64,000 bases of DNA. It comes from Devosia sp. XK-2 (GTDB lineage Bacteria > Pseudomonadota > Alphaproteobacteria > Rhizobiales > Devosiaceae). Under the pieces are notes generated by a model. It did no database searches. It had not been told where the DNA came from and saw nothing but the letters and a program-made list of their open reading frames with translations. A program made the position numbers and the translations under genes. Location of the stretch: the NCBI RefSeq assembly GCF_037113415.1, contig NZ_CP146608.1, positions 1 through 64,000 on the forward strand. Direction: 5' to 3'. Positions within the stretch are counted from its first letter, which is position 1. Every line of letters begins with the position of its first letter. This document shows positions 4,670-44,324 of the stretch, piece after piece.

Positions 4670-7132
<2,463 letters not shown>

Positions 7133-31259: not shown

Positions 31260-31720
31260 ATGAACCGAACCCTGTTTCCAAGCCAATCTCTCATTCTGGT
31301 CTGCGACGGCGCCAAGGCGCTGCTCTTCGAGAATGCGGGCGATGCCCAGGCGCTCAATCTCAGCCGCTCGACATCAGGGAGGAACCTCACCCACCGACCC
31401 GGGGTCTGGGGGCCGACCGTCCCACCCGCGTCTATGACAGCATGGATGGCTCACGGAGCGGGGCTGAGCAGACTGATTGGCACGAGGCGGCCGAGGTCGA
31501 CTTTCTGGCGAAAGTGGCTCAAGTCCTGGAGCAGGCTGTGGCCCAGCGACGTCCACCCCGGCTCAGCCTGGTCGCTCCCCCGCGCGCATTGGGCATATTG
31601 AGACAGGAACTGGGCGAGGCGACGCGGGCGGCCCTTGCGGCCGAGATCGCCAAGGACCTGGTCAATCACCCGGTTCCCGAAATCGAGAAACAGCTTGCCG
31701 CCATGCGCCAGCTCACTTGA
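31260..31720 (+). pseudogene. Frameshifted host-attachment family protein gene
   Basis: The first frame encodes MNRTLFPSQSLILVCDGAKA and LLFENAGDAQALNL, the start of a host-attachment-type (PF10116-like) protein. From about 31372 the sequence continues in another frame as DIREEPHPPTRGLGADRPTR, then AEVDFLAKVAQVLEQAV, LSLVAPPRALGILRQEL and a conserved end (EIAKDLVNHPVPEIEKQLAA) to TGA 31718. One frameshift between 31355 and 31375 breaks the gene. Its end overlaps the convergent phosphoribosyltransferase gene by eight bases. A GAAGG site precedes the ATG. Confidence 0.8.
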
Positions 31721-32378
31721 TCGGCCCGCGTGCCGGATGGAAACGGTCTAGAATGCTCGTCACATCAGCATCGGATAATTGACGGAAGTCGGCGTAGAAA
31801 GCGCCGACGCCGCCAAATGCCTGGTGCGTTTCAAGGCAAACCACATCATCGGCCTCTGGCCCGAGTGCCGCCATTGTCTGGGTCTGGCCCACTGGCACTG
31901 CCAGCACGAGGCGGCGCGGCTTTCTGCGGCGCAGCGCGCGCAGGGCCGCCCGCATTGTCGCACCCGTGGCCACGCCGTCATCGACCACGATCACAGTTTT
32001 TCCTTCGATTTGGGGCGGCGGCCGGTCGCCGAGATAGCGCGCCCGGCGCCGGTCGATCTCATTTGTTTCGTCCTGCTTGATGCGGTCGAACGTGGCCTCG
32101 GAGATTTGCGCGTGAGCAATAACCTCTTCGTTTCGCACCACAATGGGATCGGGATCATCGACAATGGCGCCGGCCGCCAGCTCCACATGGCCGGGCACGC
32201 CAATTTTGCGGACCAGCAGGAGATTCAGCGGGGCGCCCAGCGCTTCGGCAACCGGGGCCGCCACAGGAACACCGCCCCGGGGCAAGGCGAGAACCAGAGG
32301 GCTCTGGTCCCGATAGGAGAGCAGGGCGGTTGCAAGCCTCTGCCCGGCTTCTGTTCGGTTCTTGAACCCCATGGGCAT
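31713..32378 (-). CDS. Phosphoribosyltransferase-family protein
   Basis: A 221-residue type I phosphoribosyltransferase-like protein with the PRPP-binding motif VIVVDDGVATGATMRAAL, preceded by LVLALPRGGVPVAAPVAEAL and LLLVRKIGVPGH. Proteins of this type, without a known base substrate, often sit with stress and hypoxia genes. ATG 32378 (MPMGFKNR) has an AGGA site five bases upstream, which supports it as an independent gene, although the frame is open upstream into the damaged hsp20. It is downstream of hsp20 on the same strand and probably shares its promoter. Confidence 0.85.
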   Translation of the reverse strand: MPMGFKNRTEAGQRLATALLSYRDQSPLVLALPRGGVPVAAPVAEALGAPLNLLLVRKIGVPGHVELAAGAIVDDPDPIVVRNEEVIAHAQISEATFDRIKQDETNEIDRRRARYLGDRPPPQIEGKTVIVVDDGVATGATMRAALRALRRRKPRRLVLAVPVGQTQTMAALGPEADDVVCLETHQAFGGVGAFYADFRQLSDADVTSILDRFHPARGPIK

Positions 32379-32478
32379 GGTTCCTGAAATCGGTCCTCTG
32401 GATTGGACAGTAAAATCCCTGCCAGCGCCAGACATATGAGGCCGGAGCGGCCTTGCACGCTGCCGGCCTCGGTTCAGG

Positions 32479-32993
32479 TCACGCCGCCTTGACGGTAATC
32501 TTCTGCTCGCGCTTTTGCGGAGCGTGACGGTCAGCACGCCCTTATTGAAGCGGGCCTCGATCTTGTCGGCGGCCACGCCGTCGGGCAGGGCGAAGCTGCG
32601 TTCAAACGAACCGAACCGGCGTTCGCGCGGATAATAGTCACCAGACTTTTCCTCCTTCTCGTCCCGCTTTTCACCCTTGATGGCAATATTGCCATTGCGC
32701 AGCACCACCTCGATGCTCTTTTCATCGAGACCGGGGAACTCGGCGGTGATTTCAAAGGCTTTTTCCCGTTCGATGATATCGACGGCCGGCGCCGACCATC
32801 CGAAACTCCGCACCATGGCCGAGGACCGGCCCGGGGCACGGAAAGGATGCAGCCAGTCATTGCCATAGAGATCATCGAAGAGGCGATCGACCTCCTGACG
32901 CAGAGCCTCGAAGGGCCGCCAGGCGGTCGCTTCAGGGCGCGCCGGAGCGACGCCTTCCTTACGGATAGGGAGCTTTGTGGTTGTATCGGCCAT
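32479..32993 (-). pseudogene. Hsp20 small heat-shock protein gene with a frameshift near its 3' end
   Basis: The frame from ATG 32993 (after GGAGG) encodes an alpha-crystallin protein: an N-terminal arm with MVRSFGWSAPAVDIIEREKA, then FPGLDEKSIEVVLRNGNIAI, YYPRERRFGSFERSFALPDG and KGVLTVTL. After that, the expected tail PQKREQKITVKAA and its TGA (32479-32481) are in a different frame, so one or two bases were lost or gained near 32515-32525. The original frame instead runs on through 45 unrelated codons into the phosphoribosyltransferase gene. The chaperone core is complete, so a tail-extended product might still work. Confidence 0.8.
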
Positions 32994-34816: not shown

Positions 34817-35118
34817 GCGGACGTGGTGGAATCGGTAGACACAACGGACTTAGACAACTTGAGTGCGCCGGGAGAAATCCTGGACGTAGAACCGCTCAAA
34901 TTCGGGGAAAGCTGGGGCTTATGCCTTGCCAATCCCGAGCCAAGCCGCAGCGCGCTGCGGAAGGTGTAGAGACTAGACGGGCGGCACCTAAGGCGATGGC
35001 TAGGGTGAAGGTATAGTCCAGACCACGAACGCCTTTTGGGGCGGCGGTGAAAGCCGAAGTGGTATGAAAATCCGTCGGGGGTATCCCCATGCGGGTTCGA
35101 GTCCCGCCGTCCGCACCA
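34817..35118 (+). tRNA. tRNA-Leu(UAA) interrupted by a group I intron
   Basis: The exons are 34817-34851 and 35067-35118, giving an 87-nt tRNA with encoded CCA. The acceptor stem is GCGGACG with CGTCCGC, the T arm is GCGGG-TTCGAGT-CCCGC, and there is a long class II variable arm (CGGGGGTATCCCCA). The anticodon stem ACGGA/TCCGT encloses the loop CTTAAAA with anticodon TAA. The intron lies between U34 and A35, the position used in cyanobacterial and plastid tRNA-Leu(UAA) genes. Confidence 0.93.
34852..35066 (+). ncRNA. Self-splicing group I intron in tRNA-Leu(UAA)
   Basis: A 215-base intron without an open frame. The 5' exon ends in U and the intron ends in G, as group I introns require. The internal guide GAGT (34861-34864) pairs with exon ACTT (34848-34851) and forms the expected G-U pair at the splice site. 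Core elements are recognisable: CAATCCCGAGCCAAG, GGTGTAGAGACTAGACGG and AAGGTATAGTCC, with P7 formed by GACTA (34971-34975) and TAGTC (35014-35018). It resembles the small tRNA introns of subgroup IC3; the subgroup is inferred. Confidence 0.9.
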
Positions 35119-41655: not shown

Positions 41656-43254
41656 ATGGAGCCCATTATTCTGTTCATCATGGTGCTGACGCTCCTGTTC
41701 CTGGGCGTGCCGATTGCGGTCGCCCTTGGTCTCTCGAGCGTTTTGACGATCGCCATTTTCTCCTCGGACAGCATGTCCTCGGTGGCGTTGCAGCTCTTTT
41801 CGGCCTCGCAGAACTATACGCTTTTGGCCATTCCCTTCTTCATTCTTGCCTCCACCTTCATGTCGACCGGCGGCGTGGCGCGGCGCATCATCCGGCTCGC
41901 CGTGGCCAGTGTGGGCCACTTCCGCGGTGGCCTGGCCATGGCCTCGGTGCTCGCCTGCATGATGTTTGCGGCCCTGTCCGGCTCCTCGCCGGCCACCGTG
42001 GTGGCCATCGGCACCATTGCCATTGCCGCCATGCGCCAGGTGGGCTATTCGCGCCAGTTCTCGGCCGGCATTATCGCGAATGCCGGCACGCTGGGCATTC
42101 TCATCCCTCCCTCCATTGTCATGGTGGTCTATGCGACCGCCACCAATGTGTCGGTGGGCCGCATGTTCCTCGCCGGCATTCTGCCCGGTCTTGTTGCCGG
42201 CCTGATGCTGATGATTGCCATTTACATCGTCGCGCGCCGCCGCAATCTGCCATCCGAAACCTGGAAGGGTTTTGGTGAGGTTCTGGCTGCGGGCAAGGAT
42301 GCCGGTTGGGGCCTGTTCCTGATCTTCATCATCATTGGCGGCATTTACGGCGGCGCCTTCACGCCAACCGAGGCCGCGTCGGTCGCGGCAGTCTATTCGG
42401 TGCTGGTGGCCCTGTTCGTCTATCGCGACATGGGACCGCTCAAGGGCATGCCATGGATCCCCGAAGGGGCTGATGCGCGCACGGTCACAGGGTTCAAGGC
42501 CGGCGTCTATGCGCTCGCCATCTTCGTGGTGTGGATGATCACGTCCTTCTTCTTCCTGGGCAGCCTGGGCACCGCGACGCGCACCCAGATCGGCCTGATC
42601 CTCGCCGTGGTCACGCTTCTGGGCTATCCCTATGCGCGGCAGCAGCCGAGCCCCCTGACCTTCGTCGCGGGCCTCCCGGTCTGGGGCTATAATCTGGCCC
42701 TTATCGCCCGGCGCTTTGTGCCGGCGCTCTTCCATGGCGACACCAACAAGGCCCTGGTGGACAGCGCCAAGACCACCGTCATGCTGATGTTCATCATCGT
42801 CAATGCGCTGCTCTTTGCCCATACACTGACGGCCGAACGCATCCCGCAGACGATCACCGAATGGATGCTGGGGGCGGGCTTTAACTGGTTCACCTTCCTG
42901 ATTGCGGTCAATGTGCTGCTGCTGATCGGCGGCCAGTTCATGGAGCCCTCGGGCCTGCTGCTCATCGTGGCGCCGGTGGTCTTCCCCATCGCCATGGAAC
43001 TGGGCATCGATCCGATCCATCTTGGGATCATCATGGTGGTCAATATGGAGATCGGCATGGTGACACCGCCCATTGGGCTCAATCTCTTCGTGACCTCGGG
43101 GATAACCGGAATGAGCCTGGCGCAGGTGGTGCGCGCGGCCATGCCATTTGTCGCGGTCTTGCTGATCTTCCTGATAATGGTGACCTATATCCCGGCGCTT
43201 TCCACCCTGGTGCCCTACGCCATGATGGGTCCCGAGATCATCATCGGCCGCTAG
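41656..43254 (+). CDS. dctM: TRAP transporter large permease DctM
   Basis: A 532-residue transport subunit. Motifs include PFFILASTFMSTGGVARRII, ALSGSSPATVVAIGTIA, TLGILIPPSIVMVVYA and TPPIGLNLFVTSGITGMSL. It is about 100 residues longer than the usual 430; the extra piece lies at about 255-370 and contains two added membrane segments (ALAIFVVWMITSFFFLGSL and IGLILAVVTLLGYPY) and a hydrophilic stretch. Long DctM forms are known. It completes the dctPQM operon. Confidence 0.92.
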   Translation: MEPIILFIMVLTLLFLGVPIAVALGLSSVLTIAIFSSDSMSSVALQLFSASQNYTLLAIPFFILASTFMSTGGVARRIIRLAVASVGHFRGGLAMASVLACMMFAALSGSSPATVVAIGTIAIAAMRQVGYSRQFSAGIIANAGTLGILIPPSIVMVVYATATNVSVGRMFLAGILPGLVAGLMLMIAIYIVARRRNLPSETWKGFGEVLAAGKDAGWGLFLIFIIIGGIYGGAFTPTEAASVAAVYSVLVALFVYRDMGPLKGMPWIPEGADARTVTGFKAGVYALAIFVVWMITSFFFLGSLGTATRTQIGLILAVVTLLGYPYARQQPSPLTFVAGLPVWGYNLALIARRFVPALFHGDTNKALVDSAKTTVMLMFIIVNALLFAHTLTAERIPQTITEWMLGAGFNWFTFLIAVNVLLLIGGQFMEPSGLLLIVAPVVFPIAMELGIDPIHLGIIMVVNMEIGMVTPPIGLNLFVTSGITGMSLAQVVRAAMPFVAVLLIFLIMVTYIPALSTLVPYAMMGPEIIIGR

Positions 43255-43275
43255 CGCCAACCAAACCAACAGCAA

Positions 43276-43315
43276 CGCCCCGCAGCATCGGTCCTGCGGG
43301 GCGCTCCGCTTTTTG
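43276..43315 (+). terminator. Intrinsic terminator of dctPQM
   Basis: CGCCCCGCAG and CTGCGGGGCG pair around an eight-base loop (43276-43303), followed by CTCCGCTTTTT. It lies 22 bases after the dctM stop. Confidence 0.88.
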
Positions 43316-43451
43316 CCGCCTCGCTTCTGGGCCCATTGACCAAGGGTCCGACGGCCGCCCGCGGTTCTAAGGTTGACGCTTCGGTGTCCGGCGTGGAAAA
43401 GCGAGCGCATCGGGCCCGGCGGGGCGTGACAAGCGGAGCGGACTTCCAGCC

Positions 43452-44324
43452 ATGGCCATGCATATTGCCCTGACCTTTGACGATAATTTCTGGGCACCGG
43501 CCTTCGCCACCATGCGCTCGGTCTGCCTGTTCACCCATCGGCGCGAAGAACTGGTCTTTCACCTCTGCCACCGCACGCTAAGCGATGAGCACAAGGCTGA
43601 TCTCGACGCCATCCGTCAGGAATTTCCGGTGCAATTGCACTGGTACGATCTCGACCAGTCCGAAATGTTTCGGGACATTGCCGCGCGCATGCCGGAGAAT
43701 AAACGCCTCTCCAATATCGTTTATGCGCGGCTGATGATCGACCGGCTGGTCGGCGAGCATGTCGAGCGTATCCTCTATCTCGATTGCGACATGCTGGTGC
43801 GCGACGATGTCGGCTATCTCTTTGACCTCGATCTTGAGGGCAATGCCATTGCCGCCGTGCGCGACACGATCGGCGACATCATCACCGGCGGCCGCGACCT
43901 CAGGGGCAATCGCGACCTGTTCAACACGGCCGACTATTATTTCAATGCCGGCATGGTGGTCATCGATCTCAAGCAATGGCGTGAGGCCGATATTGTCGGC
44001 CAGATGGAAGCATTCCTCGCCTCAGGGGTCATGCAACGCATCTATTACGATCAGGACCTACTCAACCTGATCTTCAAGGGCCGCTGCCTGAAACTGCCGT
44101 GGCGCTGGAACACCATCCATGCCCGCCAATCGCATGAATGTTTCGACCCGGCCATCCTGCATTTTACCGGCAAGAGCAAGCCCTGGAGCGTGCTGGTGGG
44201 TCTGTTGCAATCGGTCGCCTTTGCCCGGCTTTACCGGCATGTCATGACCAATGAGCTCTATTATCGCTTCGCCCGCCACCGCTGGAAACGCTGGTGGCTG
44301 AAAAAGCTGCGCCTGGCCCGTTAG
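43452..44324 (+). CDS. Glycosyltransferase family 8 protein
   Basis: A 290-residue GT8 retaining glycosyltransferase like the lipopolysaccharide galactosyl- and glucosyltransferases. It has IALTFDDNFWAPAFATMRSV at the N-terminus, NIVYARLMIDRLV, the metal-binding DxD as LDCDML (Asp111, Asp113), YFNAGMVVIDLKQWR, and the ILHFTGKSKPW His motif. The C-terminus is strongly basic (RHRWKRWWLKKLRLAR) and may bind the membrane surface. It is convergent with another glycosyltransferase gene, overlapping by four bases. Confidence 0.92.
   Translation: MAMHIALTFDDNFWAPAFATMRSVCLFTHRREELVFHLCHRTLSDEHKADLDAIRQEFPVQLHWYDLDQSEMFRDIAARMPENKRLSNIVYARLMIDRLVGEHVERILYLDCDMLVRDDVGYLFDLDLEGNAIAAVRDTIGDIITGGRDLRGNRDLFNTADYYFNAGMVVIDLKQWREADIVGQMEAFLASGVMQRIYYDQDLLNLIFKGRCLKLPWRWNTIHARQSHECFDPAILHFTGKSKPWSVLVGLLQSVAFARLYRHVMTNELYYRFARHRWKRWWLKKLRLAR

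Follow-up and report, generated by a model that had tools for sequence, protein, structure and literature searches.

The window analysed here, i.e., the whole stretch of 64,000 nucleotides (64 kb) from Devosia sp. XK-2, contains a class II tRNA-Leu(UAA) gene at 34817-35118 that is interrupted between U34 and A35, which raises the question of where this split gene came from and what the intron does in its anticodon loop. The tRNA-Leu(UAA) intron of cyanobacteria and plastids is located between the same two bases, U34 and A35, and the tRNA-Arg(CCU) gene of Agrobacterium carries a group I intron. A complete class II tRNA with anticodon UAA and a 215-base intron at this site had been reported in the preliminary description, and this proved exact to the base both in the sequence and in the intron mode of ARAGORN, which called tRNA-Leu(taa) with a 215-nt intron. 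The features of the split gene are as follows:

34817 to 34851, forward strand: 5' exon of tRNA-Leu(UAA), ending in C32 U33 U34 (sequence, ARAGORN intron mode)
34852 to 35066, forward strand: group I intron of 215 nt, with terminal G at 35066 (RF00028, ARAGORN intron mode)
34861 to 34864, forward strand: internal guide GAGU (P1), pairing with ACUU of the 5' exon, with a G-U wobble at the splice site
34892 to 34897, forward strand: 5' strand of P3, partner 34979-34984 (aligned split genes)
34971 to 34975, forward strand: 5' strand of P7, GACUA, pseudoknot partner 35014-35018 (aligned split genes)
34979 to 34984, forward strand: 3' strand of P3, partner 34892-34897 (aligned split genes)
35014 to 35018, forward strand: 3' strand of P7, UAGUC, partner 34971-34975 (aligned split genes)
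35067 to 35118, forward strand: 3' exon of tRNA-Leu(UAA), starting with A35 A36, CCA encoded (sequence, ARAGORN intron mode)

The intron displays an RF00028 match, the splice-site U-G pair, the terminal G and the P3/P7 core, by which it belongs to the group I introns, and it may be similar to the Azoarcus intron (subgroup IC3). The RF00028 match, the check that had been proposed for the group I assignment, covers 34842-35041 on the forward strand with the full model (62.9 bits, E 1.4e-13, cut-off 50), and our own core model R1, of whose training set the window row forms part, scored 117.1 bits. Among 20 aligned split tRNA-Leu genes, the exon end CTT, the pairing of the splice-site U with an intron G and the P1 pairs (columns 32-35 with 49-52) are kept in all 20 rows, and the splice-site U, terminal G, 5'-exon guide and P7 noted earlier are all intact in the window. 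Across P1 and P3-P9, including the P3/P7 pseudoknot, 99.2% of cells are paired, a percentage biased upwards because the helix model derives in part from the consensus fold of these 20 rows. P3 and P7 have 100% of cells paired and each exhibits one pair changed on both sides, with the compensatory change of P7 (A-U to G-C) occurring in 3 of the 20 rows. Changes on both sides amount to 43 cells versus 13.7 in shuffles, pairing falls to 27–46% when the helix partners are slid, and the single-sequence fold of the window intron is mildly better than shuffles (z -2.11). Judged from these sequence features, the tRNA precursor should self-splice to a normal class II tRNA. ARAGORN in its default mode called zero tRNAs within the 64-kb window, bearing out the warning that tools would miss the gene, and tRNAscan-SE 2.0 is described in extracts of its own paper as not designed for tRNAs with such introns.

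The genome, a single contig of 3.80 Mb, contains one RF00028 match. It yielded 42 tRNA matches, among which the leucine anticodons UAG, CAA, CAG and GAG are present, in a list that is incomplete, as tRNA-Ile(GAU) and Ala(UGC) are absent from it. The joined-exon search of the genome (E <= 0.001) returned the two exons of the window and no second Leu(UAA) gene, and it is well supported that the window gene is the sole tRNA-Leu(UAA) detected in this genome. The joined exons match in 74 of 75 genus genomes (this genome included; G073, which is 78% complete, has no match), with 93% as the best match to the window gene within the genus, and ARAGORN called an unsplit tRNA-Leu(UAA) in 66 of the 67 other genus genomes with fetched loci (G002, G053 and G057, where this gene is a divergent replacement, among them), the exception being G049, described below. 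For G001, G009, G011, G047, G068 and G086, the tRNA-Leu(UAA) was judged from full-length alignment alone. The flank gene of the native locus was found in the present genome at C1:2,065,122, and beside it a degenerate tRNA-Leu(UAA), called by neither ARAGORN nor Rfam, lies at C1 2,064,364-2,064,446 (L394 743-825), 2.03 Mb from the split gene. This pseudogene occupies the position of the intact tRNA in relatives (L073, L076, L078) between conserved flanks and contains anticodon-stem changes and two one-base deletions, with many changes around the anticodon. Because the conserved flanks hold the decayed native tRNA elsewhere, the window gene is an additional gene of foreign source at a new location; its foreign origin and the native pseudogene are well supported, and the split gene was acquired in one piece. 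The origin, vertical or transferred, which had been marked as worth testing, is answered in this way as transfer of the whole split gene to a new chromosomal place.

Three other explanations bear on these observations. Vertical inheritance of the intron in the native tRNA-Leu(UAA), followed by loss in the other genus members, would agree with an intron site common to many proteobacteria and with G410, another genome of the same family, which has a split gene; it was rejected on finding the native locus elsewhere as a pseudogene, and with an unsplit gene in 66/67 fetched congeners it is very improbable. Movement of the intron alone, whether by homing or by reverse splicing, into a tRNA-Leu(UAA) gene already present draws on the ability of group I introns to move by homing, as stated in extracts of PMC3984707, and is improbable at this locus: with its 215 nt the intron has no room for an endonuclease gene, the gene as a whole is relocated and its native copy decayed, and the 35-nt 5' exon is identical to the 5' exon of L266, from another family of the order, whereas the genus reaches no more than 93% with the joined exons. 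On these grounds, intron-only homing was rejected. That the split gene is dead and the other leucine tRNAs suffice for the cell is hardly credible, as the core helices, the U-G at the splice site and the terminal G show no damage, the genome yielded no second Leu(UAA) tRNA and the former one is a pseudogene.

The relatives of the split gene were collected by a scan with a pattern derived from the core of the window intron itself, which is uninformative on the frequency of this insertion site among cyanobacteria. The same gene is split alike in at least 116 of 118 genome-contig stretches (three of 119 pattern matches were dropped, the tRNA end not being callable), and these belong, among the matches listed and with names as recognised, mostly to Alphaproteobacteria, with some Beta- and Gammaproteobacteria and one Bdellovibrionota. 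Of the 397 genomes searched in the order, 41 have an RF00028 match at E <= 0.001 (10 above the family cut-off) and so do 27 of 289 genomes of the class (13 above it), counts that were obtained under strict filters and include all tRNA isotypes and other genes. In the second tree, comprising 149 bacterial rows after the removal of two long ones and of every viral or phage row, the window shares a clade with L307 (Devosia sp. 66-14) and L266 with support of 94/75, which is below the mark of the tree tool, and the pair of window and L307 has 58/31. An integrase is located 67-71 bp before the split tRNA in both L307 and L266, the rows next nearest by path have no linked integrase, and the integrase label is scattered over the tree, with 20 changes for 23 rows. 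The flank of L307 showed no relatedness to the genus at the DNA level, so the genus name is not claimed for L307. The phylogeny of the intron against cyanobacterial and proteobacterial introns that the preliminary description had proposed was obtained on its proteobacterial side, the nearest rows being alphaproteobacterial and the two nearest integrase-linked, among comparison rows that hold no cyanobacterial introns; comparators of cyanobacterial kind were sought in viral contigs and none was found there.

The link to integrative elements, which is beyond what the preliminary description could have seen, comes from the surroundings of these relatives. In L307 and L317 (Pelagibacterium luteolum) the order is a 5' half of tRNA-Leu(UAA), a tyrosine integrase and the split tRNA-Leu(UAA), with the Pfam Phage_integrase score below its cut-off in L307 and just above it in L317. 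An integrase HMM seeded with these two was positive in 21 of the 116 split tRNA-Leu loci, both seeds included, and in all 21 the integrase is upstream on the same strand, within 301 bp in 19; the other 95 loci have no such integrase. The family is absent from 70 genus loci fetched for tRNA-Leu, of which 21 are under 1,200 bases and four have no intact tRNA. Within the window, the HMM found no integrase, no tRNA half was found and the best tblastn match had an E of 0.15, and for this reason the carrier has to be deduced from the relatives. In the genome of L307 (G751), the 5' half, split gene and 3' half follow in order on one contig over 38 kb, and there is no full-length Leu(UAA) match; the same order on one contig occurs in G752 (11 kb) and G754 (7 kb), to which G747, G756, G758 and G761 can be added if a 5'-exon match near the split locus is counted as the 5' half. 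The cassette with the 3' half further on is accordingly seen directly in relatives, and in L266/L488 the 5' half, integrase and split tRNA are present and the 3' half was not seen. An integrase, a host tRNA that is broken and not rebuilt, and a carried tRNA of the same isotype, by which tRNA-dependent integration is recognised, were found in L307 and L266.

Half tRNAs were searched in 22 genomes chosen because their split locus shows an integrase or a half. The 5' halves (matches running past the splice site) were found in 18 and the 3' halves (matches starting at 19-32 and running to the end) in 14, with both in 11; an intact tRNA-Leu(UAA) is also present in G755, and five more of the searched genomes have weaker full-length or nearly full-length tRNA-Leu matches. 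Among the 116 loci, 20 have 5'-exon matches; 16 remain after setting aside L271, whose match is on the opposite strand, and L302, L322 and L352, which resemble whole tRNAs with another anticodon. In the genus of the window, G049 follows the same layout and carries halves 70 kb apart with the split tRNA ~160 bp inside; its intron scores 37.7 bits with Rfam, under the cut-off, and its integrase, at the far end, is of a different kind, P4-like as judged by eye. A Bradyrhizobium plasmid holds a broken piece of the same integrase directly before its split tRNA, and this remnant is proposed as an example of the decay suggested for the window.

From this evidence, the split gene was probably delivered by an integrative element that breaks the host tRNA-Leu(UAA) and brings an intron-split spare as the replacement. 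In the proposed mechanism, the host tRNA-Leu(UAA) would be the target of the element's integrase, which would recombine a core of ~9-13 bp into its anticodon loop, the integration would break this gene with no rebuilding, and the host would be kept alive by the element's own tRNA-Leu(UAA), located just behind the integrase. The intron, positioned exactly between the two halves of the core, would leave the spare tRNA normal and offer no contiguous core to the integrase. We infer the arrival by an element of the L307 kind from relatedness rather than from remnants in the window. Carriage of the whole split gene by another vehicle (conjugative plasmid, transposon or DNA uptake), with no tRNA-Leu-targeting integrase involved, seems rather unlikely, and its case is made by the 1,261 plasmid records with a split tRNA-Leu over >= 80% of the query, by a resistance gene 0.7-2.1 kb away in 3 of 4 plasmids opened, and by the left neighbour of the split gene, an ornithine cyclodeaminase gene (Pfam) for which three of the 75 genus genomes, counting the present one, have a match at E <= 1e-80, so that the left flank looks accessory. 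The integrase beside the two closest relatives and the Bradyrhizobium plasmid with its broken integrase of the same family directly before the split tRNA speak for the integrative element instead. The nearest homologue of the right neighbour among 12 genomes searched is in G024 (81%), where the ornithine cyclodeaminase gene and a similar split tRNA are both missing next to it.

The position of the intron relative to the recombination core was assessed at the integrase-linked loci. In 14/14 of those whose 5' half was measured, identity with the spliced tRNA extends over 9-13 nt spanning the intron site and is lost within a few bases past that site; the 3' halves begin at position 30-32 in 10 of 14 genomes. 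Together, the identity of the 5' halves and the starts of the 3' halves place the core at about positions 31-40, with the intron inside it. Splice sites were placeable in 98 of the 116 split tRNAs from genomes and in 84 of the 93 from viruses, and a copy of the spliced core of >= 11 nt elsewhere in the locus was present in 13/98 genome loci versus 0/98 in the reversed control; viral loci gave no signal (3/84 versus 6/84 in the control) and the order survey gave 0/22.

The integrase family was also surveyed from its own side, and was found in 11 of 385 genomes of the class and 19 of 397 of the order, at 33 loci, some of which come from one genome. At 21 of these loci, a complete same-strand tRNA (Met, Arg, Phe, Gln or Trp) begins 163-378 bp before the aligned integrase start, which is the usual rebuilt target, and none of the 21 has a split tRNA downstream. 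The remaining 12 comprise six with a split tRNA-Leu, one with an unsplit tRNA-Leu(UAG) and five with none, among which two have a truncated upstream side and one (L504) has a tRNA-Arg further off, with no complete target within 460 bp and both tRNA-Arg halves ~600-640 bp upstream of an incomplete alignment. The 5' halves at the integrase-first loci were found by BLAST, and L482, where the contig ends, was counted on its intron core and 5' exon alone. The contrast of 6/12 versus 0/21 gives a Fisher p of 8e-4 with L479 moved by hand, because its sole complete upstream tRNA is an opposite-strand tRNA-Asn, and the script's own sorting gives 5/11 versus 1/22 (p 0.0096). Four plasmid-borne relatives of the integrase have neither a complete upstream tRNA nor a split tRNA, and three of them have a piece upstream resembling a tRNA 3' half.

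A comparable arrangement with another tRNA was observed in a phage. The Gordonia phage Daredevil (NC_048021) carries an unannotated tRNA-Lys(UUU) with a 238-nt intron between positions 34 and 35, some 570 bp from the integrase gene:

L238 2879-3190 (NC_048021.1): split tRNA-Lys(UUU) of Daredevil; integrase at 42698-44056

Its intron gives 15.4 bits over part of the model with Rfam, and nothing at the gathering cut-off, whereas a core model trained on 19 tRNA-Leu introns covers the full core with 102.9 bits; the same model found nothing on 17 intact-tRNA genus loci or on the other tRNA controls. Beyond Daredevil itself, the joined exons find their best full-length matches, at 86%, in the tRNA-Lys genes of Fionnbharth and its kin. 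Between the split tRNA and integrase genes of Daredevil lies a 16-nt copy of the spliced core, whereas the unsplit tRNA arm of Fionnbharth shares <= 7 nt across the core position with the surrounding 12 kb, which include the region before its integrase identified as attP in extracts of PMC10865867. By the same extracts, the carried tRNA of Fionnbharth is needed for viable integration and the plaques of Daredevil are clear, and Daredevil is described in the printed text available as having no tRNA of its own; its split tRNA-Lys gene was evidently missed by that description. The clear plaques may reflect a split tRNA that works poorly. A diverged stem in Fionnbharth and an intron in Daredevil fit as two solutions to one problem, in a comparison of one phage with one. 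A general link between viral split tRNAs and integrases is not claimed, since an integrase of the two families is within 2 kb at 2 of 90 viral split-tRNA loci (L160, L123), 88 have none, and core copies are no better than the control; a regular expression for tyrosine recombinases gave candidates at 3 of the 90.

A possible masking of the spare tRNA by the intron is the boldest step of the proposed explanation; it would agree with where the intron lies, with the difference seen inside one integrase family and with the contrast of Daredevil with Fionnbharth. The wider proposal, that group I introns in the anticodon loops of bacterial and phage tRNAs persist by hiding a spare tRNA from a loop-attacking integrase, is put forward tentatively. 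A serious if somewhat doubtful alternative is that the intron has no function in the element and is a neutral passenger of the element-borne tRNA gene. Unsplit replacement tRNAs do occur: in G002, G053 and G057 the Leu(UAA) gene is a divergent unsplit replacement beside a broken native gene, that of G002 retaining a 9-nt copy of the core, and further cases are L481 in the integrase-first survey and Fionnbharth. The intron is dispensable, since such replacements exist in the same genus, and most split genes now have no nearby integrase, as a passenger would have it. Masking would instead account for split tRNAs at 0/21 loci with a complete target versus 6/12 without, within one integrase family, for the intron in the core in 14/14 measured cases and in an unrelated phage with another tRNA, and for the match of the unsplit Fionnbharth arm to its surroundings over 7 nt versus 16 in Daredevil.

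Several known systems resemble parts of this arrangement. The tRNA-Leu(UAA) gene of cyanobacteria and plastids, for which group I introns are reported in extracts of PMC4033280, is like that of the window in the gene, the small group I intron and its location in the anticodon, and differs in that the nearest rows to the window are alphaproteobacterial, in a comparison holding no cyanobacterial sequences. The tRNA-Arg(CCU) and tRNA-Ile introns of proteobacteria, the latter reported for Azoarcus in extracts of PMC3984707, are in tRNAs other than the Leu of the window; the core model from tRNA-Leu introns gives 95-103 bits for the split tRNA-Arg(CCU) genes of four relatives, and tRNA-Arg introns may have the same history as those of tRNA-Leu. 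The cassette of the relatives resembles tRNA-dependent lysogeny (Guerrero-Bustamante and Hatfull 2024, PMC10865867, cited from extracts), of which Fionnbharth is the founding case, as both have a tyrosine integrase, a short tRNA core, a host tRNA that is not rebuilt and a carried tRNA of the same isotype; the carried tRNA is split at the core here, and the window itself has no integrase. In Sinorhizobium meliloti, also of the Alphaproteobacteria, prophage tRNA genes replace host tRNA (PMC11476347, in extracts), i.e., a host tRNA inactivated by integration is replaced by the foreign tRNA of the element. The word 'intron' was absent from the texts searched on tRNA-dependent lysogeny, PMC11476347 giving no match, except for a single match in the reference list of PMC10865867. 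For archaea, it has been proposed that attP transfers tRNA introns from one tRNA gene to another (Sugahara 2012, as cited in extracts of PMC8371274), which is alike in having a mobile element as the vehicle of tRNA introns and differs in involving archaeal introns and recombination into attB, versus a ribozyme in a complete spare gene here. A 2014 review states, in the extracts available, that all phage introns then observed were in protein-coding genes (PMC3984707), and the literature searches, in which papers were available in part, found no paper joining tRNA group I introns with integrases in bacteria.

The proposed explanation would provide a testable reason for self-splicing introns in the anticodon loops of bacterial tRNAs, which appear species by species. 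It points to tRNA-dependent integration in Proteobacteria with an added ribozyme, explains some of the 'missing' tRNAs of annotated genomes and phages, such as that of Daredevil, and describes a host tRNA gene whose place was taken by a foreign one that should need splicing to function. If the masking is true, the scattered tRNA introns of bacteria would represent the footprint of elements that hold their host by a tRNA.

Some further observations were made beside these results. In L097, L104 and L099/L100 (G053, G057 and G002, respectively), the native gene is broken at the anticodon loop and the unsplit replacement is located between its halves. The plasmid records with a split tRNA-Leu across at least 80% of the query (1,261) come from Enterobacteria, Acinetobacter and others, and in three plasmids opened from those groups it is 0.7-2.1 kb from aac(3)-IId and looks like a passenger there. 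Among the viral contigs with the intron core motif, 92 of 120 in the matches listed hold a split tRNA by ARAGORN, with Leu(UAA) as the commonest call (48), other labels being unsure since the intron placement shifts, and few are near an integrase; the contig L123 has a split tRNA-Lys(CUU) at 6025-6311 and, 115 bp from it, a frame related to the integrase of Daredevil. A split tRNA-Arg(CCU) at L415 1477-1789 is followed 32 bp behind by an integrase-like frame (E 7e-6 to a P4-like integrase), and L241 (G240 C36) contains two strong group I matches 1.5 kb apart, of 89 and 82 bits, with no split tRNA called. In the window, a single open frame of 426 aa at 31713-32993 fuses an HSP20 domain with a phosphoribosyltransferase domain.
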